Origin: Saprospiraceae bacterium
GTDB lineage: Bacteria; Bacteroidota; Bacteroidia; Chitinophagales; Saprospiraceae
Reading direction: 5' to 3'
NCBI GenBank assembly: GCA_020629845.1
Contig: JAHDCQ010000005.1
Coordinates: 23,744-56,642, forward strand
Length of the DNA stretch: 32,899 nucleotides
The translations under genes were made by a program, and so were the position numbers. Every line of letters begins with the position of its first letter. Within the stretch, counting starts at the first letter, position 1. The notes below the pieces were generated by a model. It saw nothing but the letters and a program-made list of their open reading frames with translations, did no database searches and was not told the origin of the DNA. This document shows, in pieces, positions 10,219-32,899 of this stretch.

Positions 10219-13200
10219 ATGAAAAAAATTACCCTCATCCTAGTTGTATTGTCCTATTGCTACACGTACAGTCACGCACAAATGCCGATTGGTGGAGATA
10301 CCTATTACGGAAATGAGTGGATTGATTATGAGCAGCAATATGTCAAGATTAATTTAGCAGAAAATGGCATTTATCGTATAGCTTACGATGAACTCGTCCA
10401 ATCTGGCGCTTTTAGTGGAGGCGTATTACCTAGAGGGAATCAATTGCAACTTTTTTATATGGGGCAGGAAGTGCCGCTATTTGCTAGTTCGACAGGCCAA
10501 TTAGATGAGACAGATTATATAGAATTCTATGGAGAAAAATTGGATGGCTGGCTCGACCAGTTTTTATATCCTAACTCTGAGCATCAAATAAATCCTGCTT
10601 ATAGTCTTTTCACAGATACTTCTGCTTATTTTCTGACATGGCGTGAAGAGGCATCCAATATTCGTTATCAAAATACCATTAACGACCTTTCTAATCCACC
10701 AAGCAAAGAAGCATTTTGCCGATATACTTCTGAGCTTGTTTTTAAGGATAGATATGAGAATGGACAAGGATCAAGTGAGGCTATTTCGTGCCGTTACGAT
10801 TTAGCCGAGGGCTACACTAGTCCTAAGTCTACACGACGAAACTTAGATTTTTCTACGCCACATATTCATACTACTAATCATCAGGCAAACTTATTTTTAC
10901 AACTGTCTACAGCTAGTAGAGGGACGCATGATTTGGCAGTCGTTTTGGAGGGAGATACTTTGTTGAATGATAATTTCTTTGACTGGGATTTGAAGAAATA
11001 TACAATCGATTTCAATTCTGATAAGCTTAGTTCTGCTACGAATACTATATCCACACTACTACAAGCAGAAGGTGGCAGGTTAGTTGTAGGTATGGCAAAC
11101 TTAGAGTATAATAGGACTTTTGAGTTTGATGATGAAGATTATGCGACCTTTACACTAACGGCAAGCAACGCTCGCCAATATCTTGAAATAAATGACTTTA
11201 AGCACGAAGGAGTAGCACCGATACTCTATGATATAAATAATGATATCCGAATAGTACCTACTATAGATAATGGAGTGCTGAAAGTAGTACTTCCCGCTAC
11301 TGAACAAGCTAAAAAATGTATTTTAATAGGGCAACAGGCACTAAAGCAAGTGAGCAAAATAGAAGCTGTTGAAATGATTCCATTCGATTTTGAGCAGGGT
11401 GACTACGATTACATTATTCTTACTCACCCACTACTTTTTGATGATGGGAATGGTGTGAATTATGTACAACAATACGCTGATTATAGAGCAAGCCAGCTAG
11501 GAGGTGGATACAAGCCAATCATTGTAGATGTGACGCAACTCTACGATCAGTTTGGCTATGGTATTGATAGGCATGAAGTGTCCATGCGAAATTTTTTGAA
11601 ACTAGCTTCCGAAAACTGGGAGAGCGAGCATTTATTTATTCTTGCTAAAGGCATGGATAAACATAAAATGCGCATCAATCCTGAACAATGGCAACGTTTT
11701 AGTCTAGTACCTACCTTTGGTTTTCCCCATTCGGATTATCTAATGGTGATGGATAACGATAGCTCCATACCCTGGATGGCAGTAGGACGTATAGCTGCTT
11801 ACACCCCTCAACAAGTAAAACTTTACTTGGATAAAGTAAAAGAGTTTGAAAATGCAGGCAGAAATGCCCCACAAACAATAAAAGATAAGGCCTGGCAAAA
11901 ACGCGTATTGCACTTTGGTGGAGGTGATATTGATATTCAGAACTTTATTCGTAATGATTTAAACAGAATAAAAGACACCATTTCTCAAGGGCAGTATGGA
12001 GCAGATGTAATCTCCTTTTTCAAAAACTCAACTGATGTATTACAAGATGCCCCCGCCGACGAAGTGGAAGCTTACATAGAAAATGGCGCAGGAATGCTTA
12101 CTTTCTTTGGACACTCTGCACCAAATACCCTAGACTTCAATATTGCGAATCCGAGAGTGTATCAGAATAAAGGGAAGTATCCTATTTTTTATGCGATTGG
12201 TTGTAATACGAATAGAGTGTTTGATTTGGAATCAACACTTAGTGAAGATTATGTATTGATTAAAGATCAGGGAGCAATCGCTTTCTTTGGTTCTACCTGG
12301 GTAACGCAGCTAGGGTTATTGAGCCGTTATGCAGGCTTTTTATACAGCAATTTAGCAAATGAATTTTATGGCGAACCCATAGGTACTGTTATCAAAGAAA
12401 GTATAAAGGATTTTGGAACGAATTCTTTCTTTAGTGTAGAACAAATCCGACAAGTACTGATGCTACATGGCGATCCTGCCTTAAAAATTTACCCACATGC
12501 TGCACCCGACTATTTAGTAGATGTAGAAAAAAGTAATGTATACCCTGATTTGGTGAATCTAAAATCAGATAGTTTCCAACTCAATCTTACGATTACAAAT
12601 ATAGGAAAAGCTATAGCTGATTCTATTAATGTGCGGCTAGAGCATTTGCTTCCATCAGGTAAATTAGTACCCTTGCAGACGCTTCGATTAGCCGCGCCTG
12701 CCTTTGAGTTGCAACAAAGTATTACATTACCGTTTTTAGAAAAAGTAGGCGCAATTGGGAGAAATCAAATTGTTGTTACAGTAGACGTAGATGATGAGAT
12801 AGTAGAACGTCCTATCGCTGCAGAGGATAATAATCAAGACCGTATTCCATTTTTTGCTATTTCGGATGATATAGAACCAGTCTATCCTGCTGAATTTAGC
12901 ATTGTCAATGTAGAAGATATAACGCTTACAGCATCCACTAATAATGCTTTTTCAGAAGTATTTCAGTATTATTTTGAAATAGATACTACTACCAATTTCA
13001 ATAGTTCATTAAAGCAGGATGCAATCATAAGTGACTCAGGAGGTGTAATAGAATGGACACCCAATATAAACTGGGAATCGGAGCGGGTATACTATTGGCG
13101 TGTCAGCATTGATAGTACAAGTACGAATGGGAAAGGTTTCAATTGGAAAAATAGCTCTTTTACCTATATCCTAAATGGTAGTGAAGGCTGGAATCAAGGA

Positions 13201-15225
13201 CATCATTATCAATACCTAGCTGATGACTTTGAAACACTAGTTATTGACTCTTTGACTAGAGCATGGAAATTCGGAGAATTCACCAGAAATGTACTCATTA
13301 GAGCTAGTGCTTTTCAAAATGGTGTTGCCCCTGGTGGTTTGGACTTGTTAGAAGTAGCTTTATTTGAGAATGGATTTCGGCAGTTTTCAGCTACACCTGG
13401 GCCATGTGCTACGCCTGAACAGATTTTACTAGTTGAATACGATCCCGTTTCCTTAGAACGTGATATTTATCTACCACCATTAGGAGAAACGCCAAACTGT
13501 AAGAATAAAGAAATTAATTGGTACATCTTTCATCCGAAAAAGCAGGAAGATCGTGCAAAATTCATAGAGACTATCCAAAATATTGAATCAGGTCGCTATG
13601 TTGCACTCTTTACAGCACAACGGATGAATAGTGATTATGGCGCACACGAATGGGAGTTGGATGCTTCAGTCTTGGGTACAGATATTTTTACCGTTTTAGA
13701 AGAGCAAGGTGCACGTCAGGTGAGAGCCTTAATAGATAATCAAACACCCTATATTTTTATATTCAAAAAAGATGATCCTAGTTTCTTACCCGTAGAACGT
13801 CATGCTACAGAGCGCGGGGATATTATAGAAGGAAGCACGGATTTGAAAGGAATAAATTCTAAAGGAAGTATTCGTTCTACTTTAATTGGACCAACTCAAG
13901 AGTGGAATCGTTTAGAATGGAGTGTTGGGCAGCAAGACAAGAGCGATAAGGTTTTTGTAAATGTGTATGGTGTTAAAGAAGATGGTACAGAAGATCCGCT
14001 TAATCTACTTGTGGAAGAAAGAGTTGTAAGCCTGAGTTACATAAATGCAGATACCTACCCTTACCTACGTTTAGAAATGGTATTCGAGGATGAAGGATTT
14101 CGCACGCCTACACCCATCAATTATTGGAGAGTCTTCTATAAACCACTCTTAGATTTGGCCTTAGCACCAAATAAGCATCTGGTTTTCAACTCAGATACTT
14201 TAGCGCAAGGCGATCCATTACAATTGGAGTTAGCAGTAGCTAACATAAGTGCTATAAAATCAGATAGTCTTTTGATGCAATATGCTATCATTGATTCACG
14301 CAACAATGAGTTGAAATACCTCACACGCGAACGGCCGTTGCAGCGAAAAGATAGCTTAATCGCTCTCTTTGAAACCTCTACGAGTGATTTGAAAGGGCCA
14401 CATCGCTTGATAGTAGAAACGAGTTCTATAGATGGACAAAAAGAACTCAATACGTTCAATAACATAGGCGCAAAAGAGTTTTATGTCCAATCAGATAGGC
14501 GCAACCCTTTATTAGATGTGACTTTCGATGGCGTACGGATTATGAATGGCGATATTGTTTCCGCAAAGCCTGAGATTATGATTTATCTGCGCGATGAAAA
14601 TAAGTTTCTGGCCTTGAATGATACCTCCTTGATGGAAGTGAAAGTAGTTTTCCCCTCAGGAGAAGTACGGGCGTTTAATTTTGATCATCCAGATGTTAAT
14701 TTCTATCCGCCCACTCAGGCAGAGTTAGAAACGCGAAATGAAGCACGGGTGAGTCTTCGACACGAATTTCCTGAAAATGGTACCTACCAATTGCAAGTGC
14801 AAGCAGAAGATCGCTCGGGTAATGATGCAGGAGACTATATGTATACTGTAGATTTTGAGATTATCCGTGAAAATAGAATCTCGAATGTCTTGAATTATCC
14901 GAATCCGTTTTCTACCTCCACGCAGTTTGTATTTACACTTACTGGTGAGGAAGTACCACAGGATTTGAAAATTCAAATCATGACCGTATCTGGTCAAGTG
15001 ATTCGGGAGATAGATGCTGCAGAACTTGGCGCGCTCCGTATCGGAAGAAATATTTCAGAATTCCGTTGGGATGGCACAGATCAATTTGGTGATAAATTGG
15101 CGAATGGTGTTTACCTCTATCGTGTAATGATACGGGATGCAAATGGCGAAGCTTACGAAAAATTTGATACGCAAACCGACCAGTATTTCTTCCAAAATAT
15201 TGGGAAGATGGTGATTTTGAGGTAG
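10219..15225 (+). CDS. PorU-like gingipain-family (C25) peptidase with type IX C-terminal domain
   Basis: A 1668-residue exported protein. Residues 1-20 are a signal peptide. The N-terminal region has the YVKI-x-GIYRIAYDEL and DYIEFYGEKLDG motifs of PorU. The C25 peptidase domain (about 390-790) keeps the catalytic pair: H632 in FFGHSAPN and C662 in YAIGCNTNRV. Long Ig-like regions follow, and the C-terminus (YPNPF at 1560, then a FlgD-like WDGTDQFGDKLANGVYLYRV fold) ends in IGKMVILR. PorU is the T9SS sortase that removes sorting domains and attaches cargo to A-LPS. This one is longer than the roughly 1150-1300 residues of standard PorU and resembles the long paralogue sometimes called PorU2. 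No porV lies beside it, so it may be a paralogue with a specialised role. Confidence 0.82.
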   Translation: MKKITLILVVLSYCYTYSHAQMPIGGDTYYGNEWIDYEQQYVKINLAENGIYRIAYDELVQSGAFSGGVLPRGNQLQLFYMGQEVPLFASSTGQLDETDYIEFYGEKLDGWLDQFLYPNSEHQINPAYSLFTDTSAYFLTWREEASNIRYQNTINDLSNPPSKEAFCRYTSELVFKDRYENGQGSSEAISCRYDLAEGYTSPKSTRRNLDFSTPHIHTTNHQANLFLQLSTASRGTHDLAVVLEGDTLLNDNFFDWDLKKYTIDFNSDKLSSATNTISTLLQAEGGRLVVGMANLEYNRTFEFDDEDYATFTLTASNARQYLEINDFKHEGVAPILYDINNDIRIVPTIDNGVLKVVLPATEQAKKCILIGQQALKQVSKIEAVEMIPFDFEQGDYDYIILTHPLLFDDGNGVNYVQQYADYRASQLGGGYKPIIVDVTQLYDQFGYGIDRHEVSMRNFLKLASENWESEHLFILAKGMDKHKMRINPEQWQRFSLVPTFGFPHSDYLMVMDNDSSIPWMAVGRIAAYTPQQVKLYLDKVKEFENAGRNAPQTIKDKAWQKRVLHFGGGDIDIQNFIRNDLNRIKDTISQGQYGADVISFFKNSTDVLQDAPADEVEAYIENGAGMLTFFGHSAPNTLDFNIANPRVYQNKGKYPIFYAIGCNTNRVFDLESTLSEDYVLIKDQGAIAFFGSTWVTQLGLLSRYAGFLYSNLANEFYGEPIGTVIKESIKDFGTNSFFSVEQIRQVLMLHGDPALKIYPHAAPDYLVDVEKSNVYPDLVNLKSDSFQLNLTITNIGKAIADSINVRLEHLLPSGKLVPLQTLRLAAPAFELQQSITLPFLEKVGAIGRNQIVVTVDVDDEIVERPIAAEDNNQDRIPFFAISDDIEPVYPAEFSIVNVEDITLTASTNNAFSEVFQYYFEIDTTTNFNSSLKQDAIISDSGGVIEWTPNINWESERVYYWRVSIDSTSTNGKGFNWKNSSFTYILNGSEGWNQGHHYQYLADDFETLVIDSLTRAWKFGEFTRNVLIRASAFQNGVAPGGLDLLEVALFENGFRQFSATPGPCATPEQILLVEYDPVSLERDIYLPPLGETPNCKNKEINWYIFHPKKQEDRAKFIETIQNIESGRYVALFTAQRMNSDYGAHEWELDASVLGTDIFTVLEEQGARQVRALIDNQTPYIFIFKKDDPSFLPVERHATERGDIIEGSTDLKGINSKGSIRSTLIGPTQEWNRLEWSVGQQDKSDKVFVNVYGVKEDGTEDPLNLLVEERVVSLSYINADTYPYLRLEMVFEDEGFRTPTPINYWRVFYKPLLDLALAPNKHLVFNSDTLAQGDPLQLELAVANISAIKSDSLLMQYAIIDSRNNELKYLTRERPLQRKDSLIALFETSTSDLKGPHRLIVETSSIDGQKELNTFNNIGAKEFYVQSDRRNPLLDVTFDGVRIMNGDIVSAKPEIMIYLRDENKFLALNDTSLMEVKVVFPSGEVRAFNFDHPDVNFYPPTQAELETRNEARVSLRHEFPENGTYQLQVQAEDRSGNDAGDYMYTVDFEIIRENRISNVLNYPNPFSTSTQFVFTLTGEEVPQDLKIQIMTVSGQVIREIDAAELGALRIGRNISEFRWDGTDQFGDKLANGVYLYRVMIRDANGEAYEKFDTQTDQYFFQNIGKMVILR

Positions 15226-23272: not shown

Positions 23273-23570
23273 AAAATTCTGGAGAGTCTTTGATATAGCG
23301 ATAGCGTGTGGGAAAGAGCGCGAAAAAGGACAAGACCACCGCCAGCATCCATAAACCACCGATGATGGGGATGAGTAGCTCATCCATTGGCTGTGGGATA
23401 TTAGGTATTTTGTCGAAGCAAATAGTTAGGCAGATGGATACAATAGCCGCTAGATATTTAGCTGCTTCCTCAATGCGTTCTGGGGCTTTTTGTTGCTCTT
23501 CTTGGGCGTGTTTGAGCCATGCGAGTTCTTCCGCGCTAGGGGCTTGCCCTTGTAGTTTTTCTTTTGCCAT
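23163..23570 (-). CDS. Two-TM membrane protein coupled to the CHAT protein
   Basis: A 135-residue protein. Residues 1-38 are charged and helical. Two hydrophobic segments follow (about 37-53 and 64-85) separated by a Pro-rich link, then a basic cytoplasmic tail. The ATG shares its first base with the last base of the CHAT gene stop (TAATG), so its synthesis is probably coupled to the CHAT protein. That layout suggests a membrane partner or effector, like the two-TM effectors paired with other bacterial immune sensors; this is inference. Residues from about 100 onward are encoded antisense to the dead CHU_C remnant, so the original C-terminus was probably replaced. Confidence 0.6.
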   Translation of the reverse strand: MAKEKLQGQAPSAEELAWLKHAQEEQQKAPERIEEAAKYLAAIVSICLTICFDKIPNIPQPMDELLIPIIGGLWMLAVVLSFFALFPTRYRYIKDSPEFFKYKALRKQAYYARAYPKNPMEYSWIKPIRPNDYRC

Positions 23571-26500
23571 TAGCTAGTGCTGTTTTGTGCTTGGATTTGT
23601 TGTAGGATTGCTTGGAAGCGGGCTTCGCCTATTTTTTCGATGATTGCGTTTAAATAGCTCGCAGATTTTTTTGCATTAGGCGAACCAATACGCTCAAGAA
23701 TTTGATAGGCTTGGAAGATAGGAGCGATAGCGGCTTCATATTGGTCTTGCTCGAAATATGCAATACCGATTTTATGCAAAGTCTTTGCTATGCCACTTTG
23801 GTCTCCAATCTCTTTCCTTATTTTAAGAGACTGCTTTAAATATCCTAAAGTTTTATTATAATCTCCTTTGTTACGAGCTACAGATGATAAATTATTCAAA
23901 GTCGTACTCTCGTTTTCGCGATCTCCAATTTCTTGCTGGATATTTAAAGACTGTTCTAAGTAATCTAATGCTTTGTTATAATATCCTTTATCGATGGCAT
24001 TAGTAGCTAAATTATTTAAAATAACTCCCTTTCCTTTAACATCTCCAATTTCTTGCTTTATTACTAAGGATTTTTCTAAATAATCTAATGCAATATCATA
24101 ATTTCTCTTAGCACGGGCAACACTTGCTAAATTATTTAATATTGTACTTTCAAATTGGCGATTTCCTGTTTGTTGTTGAATTTTTAGAGCATACTCTAAA
24201 TAACGTAATGATGTGTCATAGTCTCCTCTCAGTTTAAAGATTAGACTTATGTTGTTCAAAGTTGTACCCTCATTCTCACGATCGCCAATTTCCTGTTGAA
24301 TTTTTAGAGCTTGTTCTAAGTAATTTAATGCTGTATTGTAGTCTCCTTTTGTATGATAGATTTGACTAATATTATTCAAAGTAACCCCCTTCCCCTTATG
24401 ATTAGCGGTTTCTTTTTCTATTTTTAGGATCTGTTCTAAATAAACTAATGCTTTACTACAATCTCCTTTGTGGTGAAAAATAGTAGCTATGTTATTGAGG
24501 GTGCTACTTATGCTCTTATAGTCATCAATTTTTTGCTGAATTTTTAAGGCTTGTTCTAGGTAATCTAATGCAATATCATAATTGCCTTTAACTTTAGCTA
24601 TTGTTGATAAAACATTTAGAACATTACTTTTCCCCAGACTGTCATCAATTTTTTGCTGAATTTTTAAGGCTTGTTTTAGGTAATCTAATGCAATATCATA
24701 GCTTCCTTTAGCAATAGCTATTTTTGCTAAATGATATAAAGCCTGACTCTCTCCTTTGTAATCACCTAGTTTTTGATTATTAATTAGTAATTTCTGTTGG
24801 TAATGCAAGGCATGTTCTAACTGGCCTCTCATCTTAAAAATAATACCCAAATAATTCCAAATTCTACCATCTGTTTTTTCTTGTGAGATTTCCTCTGTCC
24901 GTAAACCATATACCAAAGACAAACGAAACTGCTGTACTCTATAATAAAAGTCGTTCAAGCGCCATCCAACTCTATTAATCTCGTCCACTGCTTGTACTTG
25001 GTAGTAAAATTCAAAAGCTTCAATCTCTTCACTTATAATATCTAAATATAATTTCTCATCAAAAACATACTCATGATACGCCCCCGCTTGCAAAGTATCA
25101 AAAGGCGTTTCCTCAAATTGTACTTGTTGTAGTAGCTCCTTCACTAAAGGAATCACATAATAGCGGCTGCGTCTATCGCTGCCCACTTGTTTTTCTGCTA
25201 GGGTGAGTTGGGTCAGTTTTTGTAGGGCATTACTAGGGTTTATGCCTGTGCGTTGGTAGCCTATCGCCATCGGTAGCACGGGTATATTAAAGCGCGTAAG
25301 TAAGGAGAGTACATCGCGGGCAGGGGCATCCAAATAGGCTAGGAGTTGCTCAAATACTAAGTTCTCGCTCATGCGGTGTAGCACTTTACCTGTCGCTTTG
25401 CTTTCTTTTAGGTTAGCAAGTTCTTGTAGTAATTTAAAAATACCCGCCTTGTCCTTTTGGTAGGCTTCATCAAAAAACTCTAAGGCGCGGTAGTTGCCGC
25501 CTAGCGTATCGTATAGTAGGCGTACTACTTGCTCAAAATTCGCGCTTTTTTGGTCTGCATTTTTAAAAGGTCCAGTGGCTTTTTCGCTGCGCAATTGCTG
25601 GGCTATTTCATAAAAGTGCAATTGGCTACACTTTTTAAAAAAATCGCCAAAAGGCGCGCTATTCATATTCACCAGCGTCCAATCAGGGAATTCCGCTAGT
25701 GGGTAGCGTCCTGTCACCAGCATCGGAAAATCGCTGTATTGGTCAAGCAATTGCAGCAGGGTAAACACATCTTCGTGTTGGTTTATATTCCAAGCCCAAG
25801 CCGCCTGTGTTTCGTCGTAGCTTTGGAAGCTTTCCACATTATCAAAAATGAAAAGTGGCTCACAATGCTTGGCTACTTTAGCTAGCAAGTAAAGGAATTT
25901 ATCAGTAAGTTTTTCTTTCAAACTTAACTCACTCACTACTTCAAATTGCTTATGCTCTTTCGTAAGATATTCGGTCATTTGTTTTAATAGGCTATCCGCA
26001 GCAGGGACTTTTTCGCTATGCGTAAATACCTTCGTGCGTGGGTCGCGCACCAATAGGCGTATCGCCAAATGCTCTGCCAAAGCGGTTTTTCCTACGCCGC
26101 CTTGTCCGCGTAGCAGTACGCTTTTGCCTTCCTTCAGGGCATTAAAAGCCGTACGTTTTTCCTTTCGTCGTCCTACAAATACATAATTTTTCGGGCGCAC
26201 GCGCAATTCTAATAAACCCTCATCGCCTTTCACTACGCTCATGTTTTTGGAGAAATCGAGTTCACTTCTAGGCGCGTTTTTATCCACCAAATGCTCTACG
26301 ACTTGGCTCATCAGTAGTTGTGGTATCAGCCATTGCCCTGCGGCTACATTGGCTTGCTGCATTAAGTTTCCAAAAGTCGCAATTTCAAAATCACGCACCG
26401 CCCAACAGCTTTGCTGAAAGGCGTAGGGTAATTTATAGCCTTCGGCAATGCGCTTGTAAAAATCGGCAGCAAAAAAACTCGCGATATTATCCAATACACT

Positions 26501-27301
26501 CGCCGACATCGCCAGCACCGCAGGAATACCGCCTTCTAGCAAGGTATCGGCTATCCCTGTGACATCGCCTGCTGTGCCTTGCGCAGTTTGGCAAGCCGAT
26601 AGCAAGACCATATCGGGGCGGTGTCCTTTTTGGTGCGCTTCCTTGAAAACAGCATTGAGTTCGTGGGCAGTAGCTAGGTGTAGGTTACCCGTCAAAGCAT
26701 CCTCTAGCGCGAGTGTCCCAACTTGTTTATCCTCATCAAACTTCCCATGCCCCGAAAAGTGCAGGATGTGGTATTTGTTTTCGAGCAGTTTTTCTGCTAA
26801 GGTTTCCAAAGCGCCATCTTCAGTAAAGTGGATTTTTACCAAGCCTTTGCTCATCAAAGGCGAGAAAGCTTTGAGGAGTTCGAGTTCTTCTTTTTCGTAG
26901 TCTAAGCGTGTCACGCCTTCGGGTGCAGCCACCATTATCAGCACTTTCAACGGGTAACTCTGCGATGCCTCATGTGGCGCGAGTGCTGCTGCCTTACTTT
27001 TCACTAATGGTAAAGCACGATTGCCTTCCAATGCCAACTGCCAGGGCAAATTCCGCACTTCCGTGGACGTATGTATGATTTGTAGAGGCAGCAACTCGTG
27101 TCCGAAACTGCCTGTGAGCCAAGTTGCTTCAAAGCCATCTTGGGCTTGTAAGGCTTGGGTTAGAGCTTGTTTTAAATCGCGCAAGGTGGTGGGATTGGGG
27201 AAAGGTGTGCGTCTGCGCTCCAATTCTGTGTAGAATTGTTTGCCGAGTTGTAGGAGTTTTTTCTCTTGTGTTTTGCTGAGTATTAGCTGTAGTTGTGTCA
27301 T
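23570..27301 (-). CDS. CHAT protease - STAND-type NTPase - TPR repeat protein
   Basis: A 1243-residue cytoplasmic multidomain protein. The N-terminal CHAT caspase-like protease (about 70-330) keeps both catalytic residues: H185 in HFSGHGKFD and C237 in LLSACQTAQG. The NTPase (about 370-700) has Walker A GQGGVGKT (399-406, K405) and a Walker B-like LFIFDN, followed by a winged-helix-like region. Ten TPR units of 40 residues run from about 814 to 1213 and should form the sensing superhelix. This is the architecture of signal-transduction ATPases of the NB-ARC/NACHT class used in bacterial immunity and programmed death. The 5' half is GC-richer than the TPR half. It is followed at TAATG by a two-TM protein and preceded by a zinc-ribbon gene. 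Confidence 0.9.
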   Translation of the reverse strand: MTQLQLILSKTQEKKLLQLGKQFYTELERRRTPFPNPTTLRDLKQALTQALQAQDGFEATWLTGSFGHELLPLQIIHTSTEVRNLPWQLALEGNRALPLVKSKAAALAPHEASQSYPLKVLIMVAAPEGVTRLDYEKEELELLKAFSPLMSKGLVKIHFTEDGALETLAEKLLENKYHILHFSGHGKFDEDKQVGTLALEDALTGNLHLATAHELNAVFKEAHQKGHRPDMVLLSACQTAQGTAGDVTGIADTLLEGGIPAVLAMSASVLDNIASFFAADFYKRIAEGYKLPYAFQQSCWAVRDFEIATFGNLMQQANVAAGQWLIPQLLMSQVVEHLVDKNAPRSELDFSKNMSVVKGDEGLLELRVRPKNYVFVGRRKEKRTAFNALKEGKSVLLRGQGGVGKTALAEHLAIRLLVRDPRTKVFTHSEKVPAADSLLKQMTEYLTKEHKQFEVVSELSLKEKLTDKFLYLLAKVAKHCEPLFIFDNVESFQSYDETQAAWAWNINQHEDVFTLLQLLDQYSDFPMLVTGRYPLAEFPDWTLVNMNSAPFGDFFKKCSQLHFYEIAQQLRSEKATGPFKNADQKSANFEQVVRLLYDTLGGNYRALEFFDEAYQKDKAGIFKLLQELANLKESKATGKVLHRMSENLVFEQLLAYLDAPARDVLSLLTRFNIPVLPMAIGYQRTGINPSNALQKLTQLTLAEKQVGSDRRSRYYVIPLVKELLQQVQFEETPFDTLQAGAYHEYVFDEKLYLDIISEEIEAFEFYYQVQAVDEINRVGWRLNDFYYRVQQFRLSLVYGLRTEEISQEKTDGRIWNYLGIIFKMRGQLEHALHYQQKLLINNQKLGDYKGESQALYHLAKIAIAKGSYDIALDYLKQALKIQQKIDDSLGKSNVLNVLSTIAKVKGNYDIALDYLEQALKIQQKIDDYKSISSTLNNIATIFHHKGDCSKALVYLEQILKIEKETANHKGKGVTLNNISQIYHTKGDYNTALNYLEQALKIQQEIGDRENEGTTLNNISLIFKLRGDYDTSLRYLEYALKIQQQTGNRQFESTILNNLASVARAKRNYDIALDYLEKSLVIKQEIGDVKGKGVILNNLATNAIDKGYYNKALDYLEQSLNIQQEIGDRENESTTLNNLSSVARNKGDYNKTLGYLKQSLKIRKEIGDQSGIAKTLHKIGIAYFEQDQYEAAIAPIFQAYQILERIGSPNAKKSASYLNAIIEKIGEARFQAILQQIQAQNSTS
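23800..24870 (-). repeat. Tandem 120-bp repeat array encoding TPR units
   Basis: The 3' part of the CHAT gene is built of about nine to ten 120-bp units. Two neighbours are almost identical in DNA: 24521-24580 and 24641-24700 match at 59 of 60 positions at exactly 120-bp spacing. The other units are more diverged. This indicates recent unit duplication or gene conversion, and the array could vary in length between strains. Confidence 0.8.
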
Positions 27302-27780: not shown

Positions 27781-27796
27781 TACTACACTTGTAGTA
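27781..27796. promoter_or_regulatory. BlaI-type operator 1
   Basis: TACTACACTTGTAGTA is a 16-bp dyad with 6-bp arms around ACTT. It fits the TACTACA-n-TGTAGTA operator recognised by BlaI/MecI repressors. It lies upstream of the -33 element of the blaI-like promoter. Confidence 0.75.
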
Positions 27797-27803
27797 AATA
27801 AAA

Positions 27804-27835
27804 TTTGCATCTACTACACAAGTAGTATATATTTG
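27804..27835 (+). promoter_or_regulatory. Bacteroidota-type promoter of the BlaI-like gene
   Basis: TTTG at 27804-27807 and TATATTTG at 27828-27835 (TAnnTTTG) are separated by 20 bp, an excellent match to the Bacteroidota sigma-ABfr -33/-7 consensus. The second BlaI-type operator sits exactly between the two elements, so a bound repressor would block polymerase. Confidence 0.7.
27812..27827. promoter_or_regulatory. BlaI-type operator 2, between -33 and -7
   Basis: TACTACACAAGTAGTA is a second 16-bp dyad, identical to operator 1 in both 6-bp arms and different only in the four-base centre. It is centred 31 bp downstream of operator 1, close to three helical turns, and occupies the spacer of the promoter. 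It implies autorepression of the blaI-M56 operon. Confidence 0.75.
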
Positions 27836-27906
27836 CAGCAGGTTATGATCATATCCTGTTTTTTACCAATCTAAGGATGATTGGAAAAGCAATAAAATCT
27901 ACATTC

Positions 27907-28293
27907 ATGGAAAATTATCAGCCTTCCGAGGTGGAATTAGAAATCTTGCAATTGCTTTGGGAACATCAGCCGACTACGGTGCGCTTTGTGTTCGAGCAAA
28001 TGAATGAAGGGCGCGAAAAGCCCTACAGCTATACCACTATTTTGACCTACTTCCAACGTATGGCAAAAAAGGAGGTAGTGACATTCGAGAAGCAAGGCAA
28101 AACGCACTACTACCGCGCTGTGCCACAAGAGCAAGCCGTGAAGCAAAGTCTTTCGCAACGGATGTTGGACAATGTATTTCAAGGTTCTGCGAAGAAGATG
28201 ATAATGCACGCATTGGGACAGAAAAAGGTGTCTCAAGAAGAATTGGACGAGATTCAACAATGGTTAGAAGCAAAAAAGCAAGAAAATGAATAG
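27907..28293 (+). CDS. BlaI/MecI/CopY family transcriptional repressor
   Basis: A 128-residue winged-helix repressor: VELEILQLLWEHQPTTVRFVFEQM is the N-terminal helix region of the family, YSYTTILTYFQRMAKKEVV the recognition helix and wing, and the helical C-terminus (LSQRMLDNVFQ then EELDEIQQWLEAKK) the dimerisation part cleaved in the classic system. It should bind the two dyads upstream and repress its own operon. The start at 27907 gives the usual length; an ATG at 27877 would add 10 residues. It overlaps the M56 gene by eight bases, so the pair is coupled. Confidence 0.92.
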   Translation: MENYQPSEVELEILQLLWEHQPTTVRFVFEQMNEGREKPYSYTTILTYFQRMAKKEVVTFEKQGKTHYYRAVPQEQAVKQSLSQRMLDNVFQGSAKKMIMHALGQKKVSQEELDEIQQWLEAKKQENE

Positions 28294-31200
28294 TATCAAT
28301 TGGCTAGAATGGATTCCCTACGGAAACGCGATTGGTTGGACGGTGCTACACAGCGTTTGGCAAATTGGTTTAGTGGCTATCGCGCTGCGTTTGATACTGT
28401 TGGCTGTGCCGAGGAAGCGACCAAATTTGCGCTATTCGCTATTGCTTTTGAGCCTTTTTGTTTCGCTGATTTGGGTAGGTCGAACCTTCCAACAGGAGCA
28501 AGGAAAAATAGCAGCAACACCAGCAATTACAACTACTAATACCAGTAATTCATCAGAACAAGTCGCGCAAAATCATCCGACGACAATGGTCAATCCGAGC
28601 GAAGAATCGCTTAAAATCACCCGATTGACAGAAACACAAGATAGCGCAATTCCGTTGAGTACGAACGCTATCAAAAATCAGTTCGCGCCTTATGTTCCGA
28701 TGGTGGCTTTGGCTTGGATAATTGGAGTGTTGCTGCTTTCCATTGCGATGCTTTTGGGCTTTGTACAACTGCATCGTCTGAGGACGAAAAATATCGTCGA
28801 AATAGACGAAGATTGGCAATACTTATTCAAGCAATTGAAGCAGCAAATGGGCATTTTCAAAACGGTGCAATTTGCCATTTCTGAAAAAATTCTTGAACCG
28901 GTCACGTTCCATTTCTTCAAGCCCGTAGTCTTAGTGCCGATTGGCTTTTTCAATGGACTAAGTCCTGAACAAGTGGAAGTGGTGCTGCTGCATGAGTTGG
29001 CACACATCCGACGACAGGATTATCTCGTCAATACGCTGCAATCCATTATTGAGATTTTGTTCTTTTATCATCCTGCGATTTGGTGGATTTCGGGTAAGAT
29101 TCGCGAAGAGCGCGAGCATTGTTGCGATGACCTCGTATTGAAGGTACGCAATAATCCGATGCTCTACGCGGAGGCTCTTACTCGCTTACAGATTTTTCAT
29201 CAACCACTAAAATTTAGATTAGCGATGTCTTTAAATGGAAAAAATGGAGCATTTAAGAAGCGAATTTTTAGATTGTTTGGGCAATATGATCGCCCTACTT
29301 CTTTTCTCAAAAGCGGTTTGTTAGGTGCGTTGCTGTTGCTTGCGATTTTGACGCAAGCATTCATCCAAAGCGATGCTAAAACGCATATAGAAGAAGCTTT
29401 TATAACAGAAAATACAGACTCGGCAATAGAGAAAAGTGATGCGATAGCAGAAGCAACTACAAGCGAATATCAGGTACAAGTTTCTTCGAGCAATACACCT
29501 GAAAAGGAGGATTTTGTGACACAAGAAGTTACCGAAGTGCTGAAAGAAGCAGAAGAAAACGCAGAACTAAACACCAGTAATGATTTCAAAGCCTTGATGA
29601 AGGCAATTGAAGAGAATGATATTGAGACTGTAAAAGCACTACTGGATAAGGGCGTAGATATTTATGGTGCAGATGAACGTGGCTATACGCCTTTGCTATT
29701 AGCTGCTTCTTTAAAGCATGAAGCGATTGCCAAATTACTCGTTCGCCGAACGCTAGAACACGCTGGTCTTAACCCCGATTTGGCAGAGGGTTCAGGGATA
29801 CAAATTAGAGATGAAGAAGGCAATATCAAGGATGTTTTGGATGTGTACCATAATGTCGAAGGACATGGTGATTATGAGGAAGACCATTCCTACAATCCTT
29901 ATTTCAATCACGATGATAGGTCGCATTATGATGATGAATGCAAATCACTCATCAAGGCGATATTGAAGGAGGACATCGCGGAAGTGAAACGATTAATTCC
30001 AACAATGAAAACGGATTGCGTTGATCCGAACCCAGATAGAAAAAGAGTGGAAGAAGGTGTTTATGATTATTATACTTCTGAGCCTAGAACGCCTCTAGTG
30101 GCAGCGGCACATGTTGGAAATATAGAAATTGCAAAAATATTGTTAAAAGCAAGAGCAGATATTAATTACAGCGCACACGGCGACCCATCTCCCTTGATGG
30201 AAGCAGCAGATGAAGGGCATTTGGCATTCGTGAAATATCTTCATTCCGCAGGTGCAGATATTCATATCAAAAGACGAAATGATGGCACTGCTTTAACGGT
30301 AGCAGCCAGAGAAGGGCAAGTAGCAGTGATGAAATACCTCATCGAACAAGGGGCGGACATCAATGCAAGAGCGATGGGTGAAAGTACACCACTCGCACAG
30401 GCAGCAAGAAGCGGCGAGTTAGAAGCGGTTAAGTTTTTACTTGCTAAAGGCGCGGATATTCATGCCAATGCACGTGGGGAGGGGACACCACTTTCCCTTG
30501 CAGCGCGTAGTGGACATCCAAAGGTAGTAGAGCTTCTACTTGCCGCAGGTGCAGACTTAGAATCGAAGACCATGGGCGAAGGCACACCGCTTTCGCTTGC
30601 AGCCCGTAGTGGACAGCCAAAAGTAGTGGAGCTTTTGCTTTCTAAAGGCGCAAATTTAGAATCTAATACACGTGGCGAAGGCACACCACTCTCCCTTGCG
30701 GCGCGTAGTGGACACCCAAAAGTGGTGAATCTTTTGCTTTCTAAAGGAGCTGATTTAGAATCTAATACACGCGGTGAAGGCACGCCACTTTCATTGGCTG
30801 CGCGTAGTGGAAATGAAGAAGTTATCACACTTCTGCTTGCCAAAGGCGCAGATTTAGAATCCGAAACACGGGGCGAAGGCACGCCGCTTTCCCTTGCAGC
30901 CCGTAGCGGAAATATGAAAGCTATCAAGCTTTTACTTTCCAAAGGCGCGGATATAGAGTCTGATACACGCGGAGAGGGAACGCCACTTTCCCTTGCAGCA
31001 CGTAGTGGACACACGCGCGTATCGCAATTGTTGCTTTCCAAAGGCGCGGATATAGAAGCAAACACACGCGGAGAAGGTACACCGCTTTCGCTTGCAGCGC
31101 GTAGTGGAGATGATAATATGGTCAAGTTCCTATTGGAGCAAGGCGCGAATATCGAATCTAACACCACAGGCGAAGGCACGCCACTTACTTTAGCGGCACG

Positions 31201-31684
31201 AAGTGGCAGTTTGGACTGTGTAAAAATATTGTTAGAAGAAGGTGCAGATATTAATTCTGGTAATCAATTGGATGCAACACCGCTTGCAATTGCTATGCGA
31301 AGTGGACATAGAGAAATAGCGCGTTATTTGGTCTCCAAAGGCGCAAGCGAAGATGTTTTTTCTACAAAAGGCGGCACAACTGCAAAGTCATTTGACAAAA
31401 AGGATTTGCCTAAAGATGTAACAATTGATATTAACTCGCCAATAGGAACGGAATTGAAGGTATTCCTAACGATGAAAAAATCTCATCATGTAAAAATAGA
31501 GGTTCGTAGTCTGAATAATCGTCTTATTGAAAAATTATCAGACCTTACTTTTAAAGGCGATCTTACTACCGCTTGGGATATTCCCGATTCAAAGAGACAA
31601 GGGAATTACCTAGTGTATATCACACTAGATGATGAAGTTTGGACACAAAAAATCGGAGACGGCACGGACTATCCGTGGAAATAA
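28286..31684 (+). CDS. M56/BlaR1-type membrane metalloprotease fused to ankyrin repeats
   Basis: A 1132-residue membrane protein. The M56 part has membrane segments at about 14-41, 50-66 and 137-161, the zinc motif HELAH (236-240) with the third ligand E277 in REEREHCCDD, and a fourth membrane segment at about 345-364. The extracytoplasmic part has no penicillin-binding sensor domain. Instead it has about 16 ankyrin repeats (about 432-1024), including eight nearly identical 33-residue units with GEGTPLSLAARSG (731-994). A final beta-rich domain (about 1040-1132) is like FlgD/T9SS tail folds. It probably senses an envelope signal and cleaves the BlaI-type repressor. What it senses is unknown. 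Confidence 0.9.
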   Translation: MNSINWLEWIPYGNAIGWTVLHSVWQIGLVAIALRLILLAVPRKRPNLRYSLLLLSLFVSLIWVGRTFQQEQGKIAATPAITTTNTSNSSEQVAQNHPTTMVNPSEESLKITRLTETQDSAIPLSTNAIKNQFAPYVPMVALAWIIGVLLLSIAMLLGFVQLHRLRTKNIVEIDEDWQYLFKQLKQQMGIFKTVQFAISEKILEPVTFHFFKPVVLVPIGFFNGLSPEQVEVVLLHELAHIRRQDYLVNTLQSIIEILFFYHPAIWWISGKIREEREHCCDDLVLKVRNNPMLYAEALTRLQIFHQPLKFRLAMSLNGKNGAFKKRIFRLFGQYDRPTSFLKSGLLGALLLLAILTQAFIQSDAKTHIEEAFITENTDSAIEKSDAIAEATTSEYQVQVSSSNTPEKEDFVTQEVTEVLKEAEENAELNTSNDFKALMKAIEENDIETVKALLDKGVDIYGADERGYTPLLLAASLKHEAIAKLLVRRTLEHAGLNPDLAEGSGIQIRDEEGNIKDVLDVYHNVEGHGDYEEDHSYNPYFNHDDRSHYDDECKSLIKAILKEDIAEVKRLIPTMKTDCVDPNPDRKRVEEGVYDYYTSEPRTPLVAAAHVGNIEIAKILLKARADINYSAHGDPSPLMEAADEGHLAFVKYLHSAGADIHIKRRNDGTALTVAAREGQVAVMKYLIEQGADINARAMGESTPLAQAARSGELEAVKFLLAKGADIHANARGEGTPLSLAARSGHPKVVELLLAAGADLESKTMGEGTPLSLAARSGQPKVVELLLSKGANLESNTRGEGTPLSLAARSGHPKVVNLLLSKGADLESNTRGEGTPLSLAARSGNEEVITLLLAKGADLESETRGEGTPLSLAARSGNMKAIKLLLSKGADIESDTRGEGTPLSLAARSGHTRVSQLLLSKGADIEANTRGEGTPLSLAARSGDDNMVKFLLEQGANIESNTTGEGTPLTLAARSGSLDCVKILLEEGADINSGNQLDATPLAIAMRSGHREIARYLVSKGASEDVFSTKGGTTAKSFDKKDLPKDVTIDINSPIGTELKVFLTMKKSHHVKIEVRSLNNRLIEKLSDLTFKGDLTTAWDIPDSKRQGNYLVYITLDDEVWTQKIGDGTDYPWK
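30476..31267 (+). repeat. 99-bp tandem repeats encoding ankyrin units
   Basis: Eight consecutive 99-bp units encode 33-residue ankyrin repeats that share GEGTPLSLAARSG, LLLSKGADLES and related stretches with high identity. Neighbouring units are also similar at DNA level. The array is in frame and should change in copy number by recombination or slippage without breaking the gene. Confidence 0.85.
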
Positions 31685-31702
31685 TATTTGTAGAGGGTAA
31701 AA

Positions 31703-31763
31703 GGTAGAGCGTAGAGGGACTTTTAAAGTCTATCCCTCTACCAATTATCCTCTACGCTCTACC
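31703..31763. repeat. 15-bp inverted repeat between M56-ankyrin and TonB receptor genes
   Basis: GGTAGAGCGTAGAGG (31703-31717) and its complement (31749-31763) are perfect arms around a 31-base centre that itself contains a TAGAGGGA/TCCCTCTA stem. It lies 19 bp after the M56 stop. A terminator or a dispersed palindromic repeat are both possible; no T run follows directly. Confidence 0.6.
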
Positions 31764-31791
31764 AATTTTCAATCACCTAATTGTTTTTAAA

Positions 31792-32899
31792 ATGAGAATC
31801 TTATGCCTATTGGGCGTACTGGCTTTTGCTAGTTCGCTCCTAGCAAATCCTATTGCTATACAATACCGTATTCAAGGACAAATCACAAGCCAAAACGCCA
31901 ATCAGCCACTAGAATATGCCACGATTTCTGCTTATACCACCGACTCGACTTTAGTGGATGGTACGATTACAGACGAGTCGGGCAAATTCCAATTACAATT
32001 GGAAGCAGGCGCGTATCGCTTGCAGATTGATTTTATTGGTTTTGAAGGACAATCGCTTGATATTGACTTGCAAGCAGATAAGGATTTAGGCACAATTCAG
32101 CTTTCGAGTGAAAGTCTTGCGCTAGATGCCGTAGAAGTAACCGCCGAGCAAAGTCAAATGAATTTACAATTGGACAAAAAGGTCTTTAATGTAGGAAAAG
32201 ACTTACTTTCCAGAGGTGGCACGGCTACTGAAATATTGGATAATGTACCTTCTATTGCCGTCGAACCGAATGGTACGGTGAGTCTGCGCGGCAGAACAGG
32301 CGTGACAATTTTGATAAATGGTAAACCTTCTGCACTAGCAGATAACAATGCGCTTTCAACGATTCCAGCATCGAGTATTGAAAAAGTGGAAGTCATCACC
32401 AATCCATCGGCACGTTATGAAGCGGCAGGAAATGCAGGTATTATCAATATTGTTTTGAAAGCAAATCGTAAGCGTGGATTTAATGGTACGGCTACCGTCA
32501 CGGCAGGTCTCCCTGCGGATTATCAGCCTTCATTTAGCTTTAATTTTAGACGCGAAAAGTTTAATTTCTTTGGCAATATCGGTGCGCGTTATGCAAATTT
32601 CATTGGACGAGGCGATGCAAATCGCATAAGCACTTTAGCGGATATAACTTCCTCCTTCGAGATGGAATACAATCAAGACCGCAATGATAAAGCCGCTTTT
32701 GGTTTCGTAGGTATGGATTATTTTTTGGATGATGAACAAACTTTAACCGCTTCTTACTCCAATTATAGCGTGGTGAATACAGACCAAAACATTACGGAGT
32801 TTTTATACAAAGATGGCGCAGGCGAATTGACGCAAGCCATAGAACAAACCTACAATTACCGAGAACCTGAATCTTATAATCAATTGGATTTGACGTATA
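31792..32899 (+). CDS. TonB-dependent receptor, 5' part only
   Basis: A gene that runs off the window with at least 369 codons and no stop. The ATG at 31792 starts a signal peptide (hydrophobic core to about residue 21). A CarboxypepD_reg-like beta domain follows (about 27-105, RIQGQITSQNANQPLEYATI), then LDAVEVTAEQ and a plug domain with LSRGGTATEILDNVPSI, GVTILINGKPSALADNN and VEVITNPSARYEAAGNAGIINI, and then the first strands of an OMP_b-brl_3-type barrel. It lies 107 bp after the M56-ankyrin gene and may be its target or unit partner. The substrate is unknown. Confidence 0.88.
   Translation, partial: MRILCLLGVLAFASSLLANPIAIQYRIQGQITSQNANQPLEYATISAYTTDSTLVDGTITDESGKFQLQLEAGAYRLQIDFIGFEGQSLDIDLQADKDLGTIQLSSESLALDAVEVTAEQSQMNLQLDKKVFNVGKDLLSRGGTATEILDNVPSIAVEPNGTVSLRGRTGVTILINGKPSALADNNALSTIPASSIEKVEVITNPSARYEAAGNAGIINIVLKANRKRGFNGTATVTAGLPADYQPSFSFNFRREKFNFFGNIGARYANFIGRGDANRISTLADITSSFEMEYNQDRNDKAAFGFVGMDYFLDDEQTLTASYSNYSVVNTDQNITEFLYKDGAGELTQAIEQTYNYREPESYNQLDLTY

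Follow-up and report, generated by a model that had tools for sequence, protein, structure and literature searches.

Which signal a BlaI-type repressor and its membrane protease could respond to, once the protease carries no penicillin-binding domain, is the question raised by a locus at the end of a DNA stretch of 32,899 nucleotides from a Saprospiraceae bacterium (contig JAHDCQ010000005.1, positions 23,744 to 56,642), hereafter the window. BlaI and BlaR1 are taught as an antibiotic-sensing switch. In the window this protease-repressor core is joined to a solenoid of the protein-binding type and lies beside an apparently dedicated outer-membrane receptor. We lean slightly towards the view that blaI, the M56-ankyrin gene and the gene of the TonB-dependent receptor make up one autorepressed signalling operon, which would be opened by an ankyrin-triggered cleavage of BlaI. 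The initial annotation, made from the sequence alone, had named the BlaI and M56-ankyrin pair, and the Pfam matches (PF03965, PF05569 and Ank_2) bear this out. The features concerned are the following, the term cassette denoting the three genes in this order.

27781..27796, no strand: upstream operator-like dyad TACTACACTTGTAGTA, a perfect 6+4+6 dyad
27804..27835, + strand: -33/-7-like promoter TTTGC...TATATTTG, a pattern match, with a similar layout by eye before blaI of relatives
27812..27827, no strand: operator-like dyad TACTACACAAGTAGTA in the promoter spacer, a perfect 6+4+6 dyad
27877..28293, + strand: BlaI/MecI-family repressor, 138 aa (Pfam PF03965, Penicillinase_R, E 2.6e-27)
28286..31684, + strand: M56-ankyrin membrane protease, 1132 aa (PF05569 E 1.4e-33; Ank_2 E 2.4e-132; AlphaFold2 mean predicted local distance difference test, pLDDT, 70)
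28991..29005, + strand: HELAH zinc motif (residues 236-240), by alignment the counterpart of H201EXXH in S. aureus BlaR1
29576..31357, + strand: ankyrin region, residues about 431-1024, predicted periplasmic (Pfam, model, matches to ankyrin solenoids of the PDB, charge rule)
31394..31654, + strand: C-terminal Ig-like beta sandwich, residues 1037-1123 (folded model, Foldseek), missing from 17 aligned relatives
31689..31756, + strand: strong hairpin in the gap that follows the M56-ankyrin gene and precedes the receptor gene (-35.1 kcal/mol for 31680-31800, z -4.7)
31792..32899, + strand: 5' part of the TonB-dependent receptor, 369 aa (CarbopepD_reg_2 E 6.1e-16; Plug E 1.6e-8), a member of the cassette receptor clade

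The blaI and M56-ankyrin genes share 8 bases, and before blaI the two perfect dyads are spaced by 31 bp, the second being enclosed by TTTGC...TATATTTG, a motif which we take to be of the Bacteroidota promoter type. The near identity of the dyads and the location of one of them in the -33/-7 spacer had been noticed before and stand. TACTACnnnnGTAGTA has only two copies in the window, both before blaI, and two perfect 6+4+6 dyads of any sequence were found in none of 400 Markov-1 sequences of 300 bp. The Penicillinase_R domain together with the own-promoter dyads points to a repressor of the BlaI/MecI/CopY kind, for which the dyads would be own-promoter operators as originally proposed; in relatives the placement of a dyad within the promoter, read by eye, resembles that of the window. 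The genome of the window has five BlaI matches and six M56 matches.

The membrane protein keeps the protease part of BlaR1. Over residues 140-331 it can be aligned with BlaR1 of S. aureus (8exp, E 5.5e-14), H201, E202, H205 and D210 of BlaR1 corresponding to H236, E237, H240 and D245 of the window protein, and E242, D246, Y261 and R294 to E277, D281, Y294 and R326. The HExxH motif had been recognised initially, and with ExxxD and the conserved D, Y and R also present the protein carries the residues of an M56 peptidase of the BlaR1 type; all eight positions, of the active site and its surround, are the same in every one of 18 aligned M56-ankyrin proteins. The roles of H201EXXH, E242XXXD, D210, Y261 and R294 in BlaR1 are given in PMC9834060. 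The autocleavage loop HSFNGK of BlaR1 aligns with MSLNGK, and self-cleavage of the window protein is possible. No transpeptidase or penicillin-binding domain was found among the Pfam matches at E<=0.001 over the 1132 residues, and the NCBIfam models of BlaR1/MecR1 match only the protease part, far below their cut-offs. A fold search with the whole model gave a list taken up by ankyrins, uninformative on the protease part. That ankyrins take the place of the penicillin-binding domain, also an early claim, is upheld by the Pfam matches, the sequence and the model.

Four transmembrane (TM) segments are predicted by hydropathy (starts 23, 50, 139 and 343), with helices also in the model, and HELAH lies between the third and the fourth. 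The charges are +4 for the TM1-TM2 loop, +4 for TM3-TM4 and +1 for TM2-TM3, and -5 for the segment past the last TM. Four TM segments were obtained by hydropathy in 20 of 25 proteins examined; the partial L099 has two, and L077, L078, L081 and L083 have a fifth candidate, located just past HExxH in the first three and past the last TM in L083. The TM1-TM2 and TM3-TM4 (protease) loops are net positive in 20 of 20 four-TM proteins, in which the TM2-TM3 loop ranges from -3 to +2 and the segment past the last TM is negative in 16, zero in three and +1 in one (L092). Read with BlaR1 as the model, the loop charges place the ankyrins in the periplasm. Hydropathy, the charge rule and BlaR1 homology thus predict a four-TM protein with a cytoplasmic protease and an outside sensor, and the topology prediction suggested as a check of the initial annotation puts the ankyrin region on the non-cytoplasmic side.

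The ankyrin array counts 13 repeats by a strict pattern and 14 by a home-made profile. Its helices are confidently modelled by AlphaFold2 for residues about 431-490 and 601-1020, and confidence is low for 500-600 and for the linker, 361-430. A tract of the window at 30467-31108 is made of 99-bp ankyrin units with 76% DNA matches (Tandem Repeats Finder), suggesting that the array expanded in tandem. When the last 108 residues are folded separately, the model is a beta sandwich (mean pLDDT 75), which Foldseek matches best to portions of sugar hydrolases, with E about 0.001 at best. The FlgD-like label given earlier to this C-terminus was not confirmed, as only a generic Ig-like fold was recovered and no FlgD_ig or sorting-domain Pfam match was obtained at E<=1; the one Pfam family matched by these residues was at chance level (E 0.05).

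Among Saprospiraceae/Lewinellaceae the M56-ankyrin type is met repeatedly. Genome contigs were scanned with the M56 part and the best 80 of 562 loci were kept, a slice holding those most like the ankyrin type, to which the counts of M56 loci given here refer. Ankyrins are present in 24 of the 80, from Neolewinella, Lewinella and metagenome bins of Saprospiraceae and other Bacteroidota. A TonB-dependent receptor is found within 1.5 kb downstream in 17 of the 21 ankyrin loci having at least 700 bp, and in 1 of 51 non-ankyrin M56 loci (L149, 27% identical). L099, nearer to a contig end, also has a receptor downstream and is counted apart, L078 and L089 have too little downstream DNA to count, and five short non-ankyrin loci stand outside the 51. 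The gap between the M56-ankyrin and receptor genes is 108 bp in the window, whose receptor gene is cut by the window end, which is the contig end; it is 7-25 bp in L086, L087, L093, L094 and L095 and 11 bp in L091 (tblastn), and reaches 530 bp in some relatives. A genome with a full cassette also encodes a second M56-ankyrin protein (L112, scanned as L068 3990-8319).

The recurrent receptors form, by their sequences, a dedicated clade. In a tree of 50 receptors, a branch of support 100 separates those of 17 cassettes and that of the window from 32 others, namely six from the genome of the window, 25 from five relatives and that of L149. The cassette receptors L165-L169, from five of the G genomes, are outside this tree; four of them copy rows within it and L168 does not. 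The reverse search, with the window receptor against 398 genomes of the family, gave 27 places with at least 297 bits, all others having at most 283. An ankyrin-bearing open reading frame (ORF) lies upstream of 23 of these 27 receptors, two of the 23 (L264 and L256) running off the start of their contig and showing ankyrins alone; as for the remaining four, L215 has BlaI and an M56 protein without ankyrins, and L209, L212 and L267 have none of these upstream. Below the score gap, and so outside the 27, G403 has a truncated receptor with M56-ankyrin upstream (L216). Neither BlaI, M56 nor ankyrin matches were found anywhere in the fetched DNA of nine next-best paralogue receptor loci, the best paralogue (G373) not being among these nine controls. 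A second tree of 82 rows holds 25 of the 27 score-chosen receptors, those of G282 and G147 being left out, and 24 of the 25 fall in a clade of 38 rows (support 97); L209 is outside, beside a control, and constraining all 39 receptors together is not rejected (approximately unbiased, AU, test, p 0.63). The downstream receptor, initially considered as a possible target, gains in likelihood from this synteny, conserved in both search directions. By eye, the M56 proteins of L073, L076 and L215 have long arrays of 'IHG'-type repeats replacing the ankyrins, and in L215 the pair and a separate IHG-repeat protein of 335 aa precede a receptor of the cassette clade.

The trees also bear on the history of the BlaI-M56 half. 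In the M56 tree the closest partner of the window domain is a paralogue without ankyrins from the genome of the window itself (support 100), and the window domain is not part of the clade of 24 ankyrin rows (support 93), within which L097 and L100 branch as sister to the remaining 22. A constraint that groups all ankyrin rows has a cost of 34.5 log units. These two loci, of the window and of its own genome, also form a pair in the BlaI tree (support 99, with few columns and long branches). The second M56 tree was made without ownC124, L140 and L149, whose branches are long. The receptor of the window stays in the cassette clade although its BlaI and M56 group with a non-ankyrin pair. The gene order of the window is also that of L207, whose M56 is remote (PF05569 at 47.1 bits vs 116.8 in the window, Pfam scores being compared since the home-built M56 profile included the window) and whose receptor, 49% identical to that of the window, is in the cassette clade. 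The ankyrins of L207 match residues 551-732 of the window protein with 46.7% and 147 bits, the next (L097) having 98, and the match includes a stretch which by eye is not a plain repeat. Ankyrins and the receptor clade thus occur together over apparently three BlaI-M56 lineages, a suggestive pattern, and the trees and scores suggest an exchange of the BlaI-M56 half under the ankyrin and receptor pair; alternatively, ankyrins may have been fused more than once. In the paralogue nearest to the M56 of the window (L016 6808-10010), stretches after the protease resemble by eye plug motifs of TonB receptors (ILDGK...GVVEI); no Pfam plug was found at E<=1 in its first part, and a run of N lies between the plug-like stretches.

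Perfect dyads with 7-bp arms number 23 upstream of 23 ankyrin loci, compared with 3.95 expected from mononucleotide shuffles, and 54 upstream of 56 non-ankyrin loci, compared with 9.6. The excess exists with and without ankyrins, and therefore own-promoter dyads appear general among these BlaI-M56 pairs; L112 shows no dyad in the 6-bp listing of its upstream region. By eye, many dyads of relatives have TACGA/TCGTA halves, often between TTTGC and TAnnTTTG. The search of the genome for TACTACA-n(2-4)-TGTAGTA, intended originally to define a regulon, gave two places, the window and the 5' end of a coding frame, and a third exact match of TACTACnnnnGTAGTA (C15) sits in a long open frame. With at most two mismatches TACTACnnnnGTAGTA has 408 matches in the genome vs 571 in the reversed control, that is, no enrichment, and no wider regulon emerged. 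As the other exact sites lie in coding frames, the receptor, if controlled, is most likely transcribed from the blaI promoter by way of a shared operon. Six relatives have 20 sites of the type YTACGAn6TCGTAR vs 14 in the reversed control, the sixth genome, with a lone receptor, having 5 vs 5.

We infer the following mechanism. Dimers of BlaI on the promoter-overlapping dyads would hold the operon low, and the M56 protein would be a BlaR1-type zinc protease directed toward the cytoplasm, with its long ankyrin solenoid in the periplasm. The ankyrins would meet a partner, for which the best candidates are the periplasmic portion of the adjacent receptor and a protein or peptide imported by it, and this contact would release the protease with the consequent cutting of BlaI, a step that is modelled on BlaR1. 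The loss of BlaI would then turn on the operon, including the receptor. The proposal builds on the gene order and its conservation, the catalytic residues, the operator-like dyads, the predicted topology and the receptor clade, to which it would add repression, the cleavage of BlaI, transcription through to the receptor and a partner for the ankyrins; that the ankyrins monitor the receptor, or else its cargo, is suggested by the gene pairing. Concerning this cargo, one weak structure match was obtained (siderophore receptor 5fr8, 97 residues, E 3e-6), from which nothing certain follows.

BlaR1/BlaI and MecR1/MecI of staphylococci and bacilli share with the window a BlaI-family repressor, dyads in its own promoter, a sensor past the last TM and an M56 gluzincin with all checked catalytic residues and four predicted TM segments. 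Unlike them, the window has an ankyrin solenoid in the place of the penicillin-binding sensor, and its partner gene encodes a TonB-dependent receptor and not a beta-lactamase or PBP2a. Other Bacteroidota BlaI-M56 pairs whose C-termini are not of the penicillin-binding protein type have the same two-gene base, their C-termini being non-ankyrin and the single receptor found after 51 of them belonging to another clade. One pair of the genome of the window (L018 4976-8269) has a C-terminus which by eye resembles a domain of the formylglycine-generating-enzyme type.

Cell-surface signalling by TonB receptors is known by the names FecA, FecR and FecI, STN being the N-terminal signalling domain. In such systems the periplasmic domain of the receptor acts on an anti-sigma factor, according to the review PMC7593790, and the same text describes, as in our proposal, an outer-membrane receptor beside an inner-membrane transducer and proteolysis acting on a transcription regulator. 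In contrast, the window has a repressor and an M56 protease with no sigma/anti-sigma pair, and STN is absent from the two full receptors scanned (L069 and L070); its system is therefore not a member of the FecA type, though it may work alike. The receptor part in the window has no Pfam match to STN at E<=0.001. We advance tentatively, and with some doubt, that the ankyrins are engaged by the periplasmic portion of the receptor or by the cargo of the receptor, upon which M56 opens and BlaI is destroyed. This would parallel FecA-FecR-FecI, the ankyrins and receptor being conserved as a pair and the BlaI-M56 half interchangeable beneath them. If true, outer-membrane receptors could govern their own genes by a second route based on proteolysis, and there would be a concrete handle on what many non-penicillin M56 proteins of Bacteroidota sense.

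Several results weigh against a receptor-coupled operon. The cassettes are mostly kin, so the counts reflect few independent events, and the clade receptors L212 and L267 stand alone, as does L209, but the tree puts the latter outside the clade. No Pfam match to STN appeared at E<=1 in L069 and L070. In five cassette genomes YTACGAn6TCGTAR has 15 sites vs 9 in the reversed control; 9 of the 15 belong to cassette promoters, and 2 lie close to a different M56 gene. A single ankyrin-M56 clade is not firmly excluded by the M56 tree (AU p 0.097), and M56-ankyrin may have had a single origin. The ankyrin scores are mixed, repeats making them hard to read: the whole ankyrin region of the window scores best with L097 (237 bits; L207 171), and from the ankyrins of L207 the values are 197 for L097, 173 for L100 and 172 for the window.

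Further such results favour other explanations. It is rather unlikely, in our judgement, that the signal of the ankyrins has nothing to do with the receptor, coming instead from an envelope protein, from stress or from a secreted partner, and that the receptor is just the regulated output. This would account for the four of 21 ankyrin loci without a receptor, including L097 and L100, the sister group of the other 22: downstream, by eye, L083 has a transposase-like ORF further on, L097 a thioredoxin-like ORF, and the gene next to L100 is divergent; after L112, a protein with a beta-lactamase fold and TPRs (PF00144 E 8e-64) stands where a receptor would be. It would also fit the M56 proteins with other repeat sensors, the IHG-type L215 among them, which precedes a clade receptor. 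However, a free sensor would be expected with varied outputs, whereas the ankyrins and the receptor clade stay together while the BlaI-M56 half differs.

That the receptor has its own promoter and is an inherited neighbour, the BlaI-M56-ankyrin genes regulating themselves or unlinked genes, we regard as improbable. The gap between the M56-ankyrin and receptor genes lacks the relatives-type operator in 18 of 18 cassettes and the window-type operator in the window, where it holds the strong hairpin, so that control of the receptor would depend on transcriptional read-through; these facts and the gaps of up to 530 bp would suit a separate promoter. The hairpin, a 14-base piece of which is found at two other places in the genome, may attenuate or protect the transcript. 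Against this explanation are the gaps of 7-25 bp, or 11 bp in L091, in the six relatives mentioned above, the recurrence of the pairing with different BlaI-M56 halves, and the search of the genome of the window, in which no other promoter site was found. Finally, an ordinary beta-lactam sensor system with an overlooked sensor domain would agree with the family of BlaI and M56 but has next to no likelihood, given a C-terminal half that is ankyrin by sequence and model, 1132 residues with no penicillin-binding or transpeptidase Pfam match, and BlaR1/MecR1 NCBIfam models that hit the protease part only, far under their cut-offs.

With respect to the proposed BlaI-M56-ankyrin-receptor operon, full-text searches, with subscription papers mostly outside their coverage, gave no description of it; the terms M56 family metallopeptidase and TonB-dependent were met together in one line of a methylation table, in PMC10470040.

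Elsewhere in the window, a protein of 1243 aa (23570-27301, - strand) combines a CHAT protease domain, an AAA/STAND-like NTPase and TPR repeats, and is adjoined by an ORF of 135 aa with no Pfam match; weak PADLOC matches were obtained at this place (SAVED_CHAT E 8e-7). A peptidase of 1668 aa of the C25 gingipain family (10219-15225, + strand; PF01364 E 4e-55) carries FlgD_ig near its C-terminus (PF13860 E 1e-6) and is a likely cargo of the type IX secretion system (T9SS).

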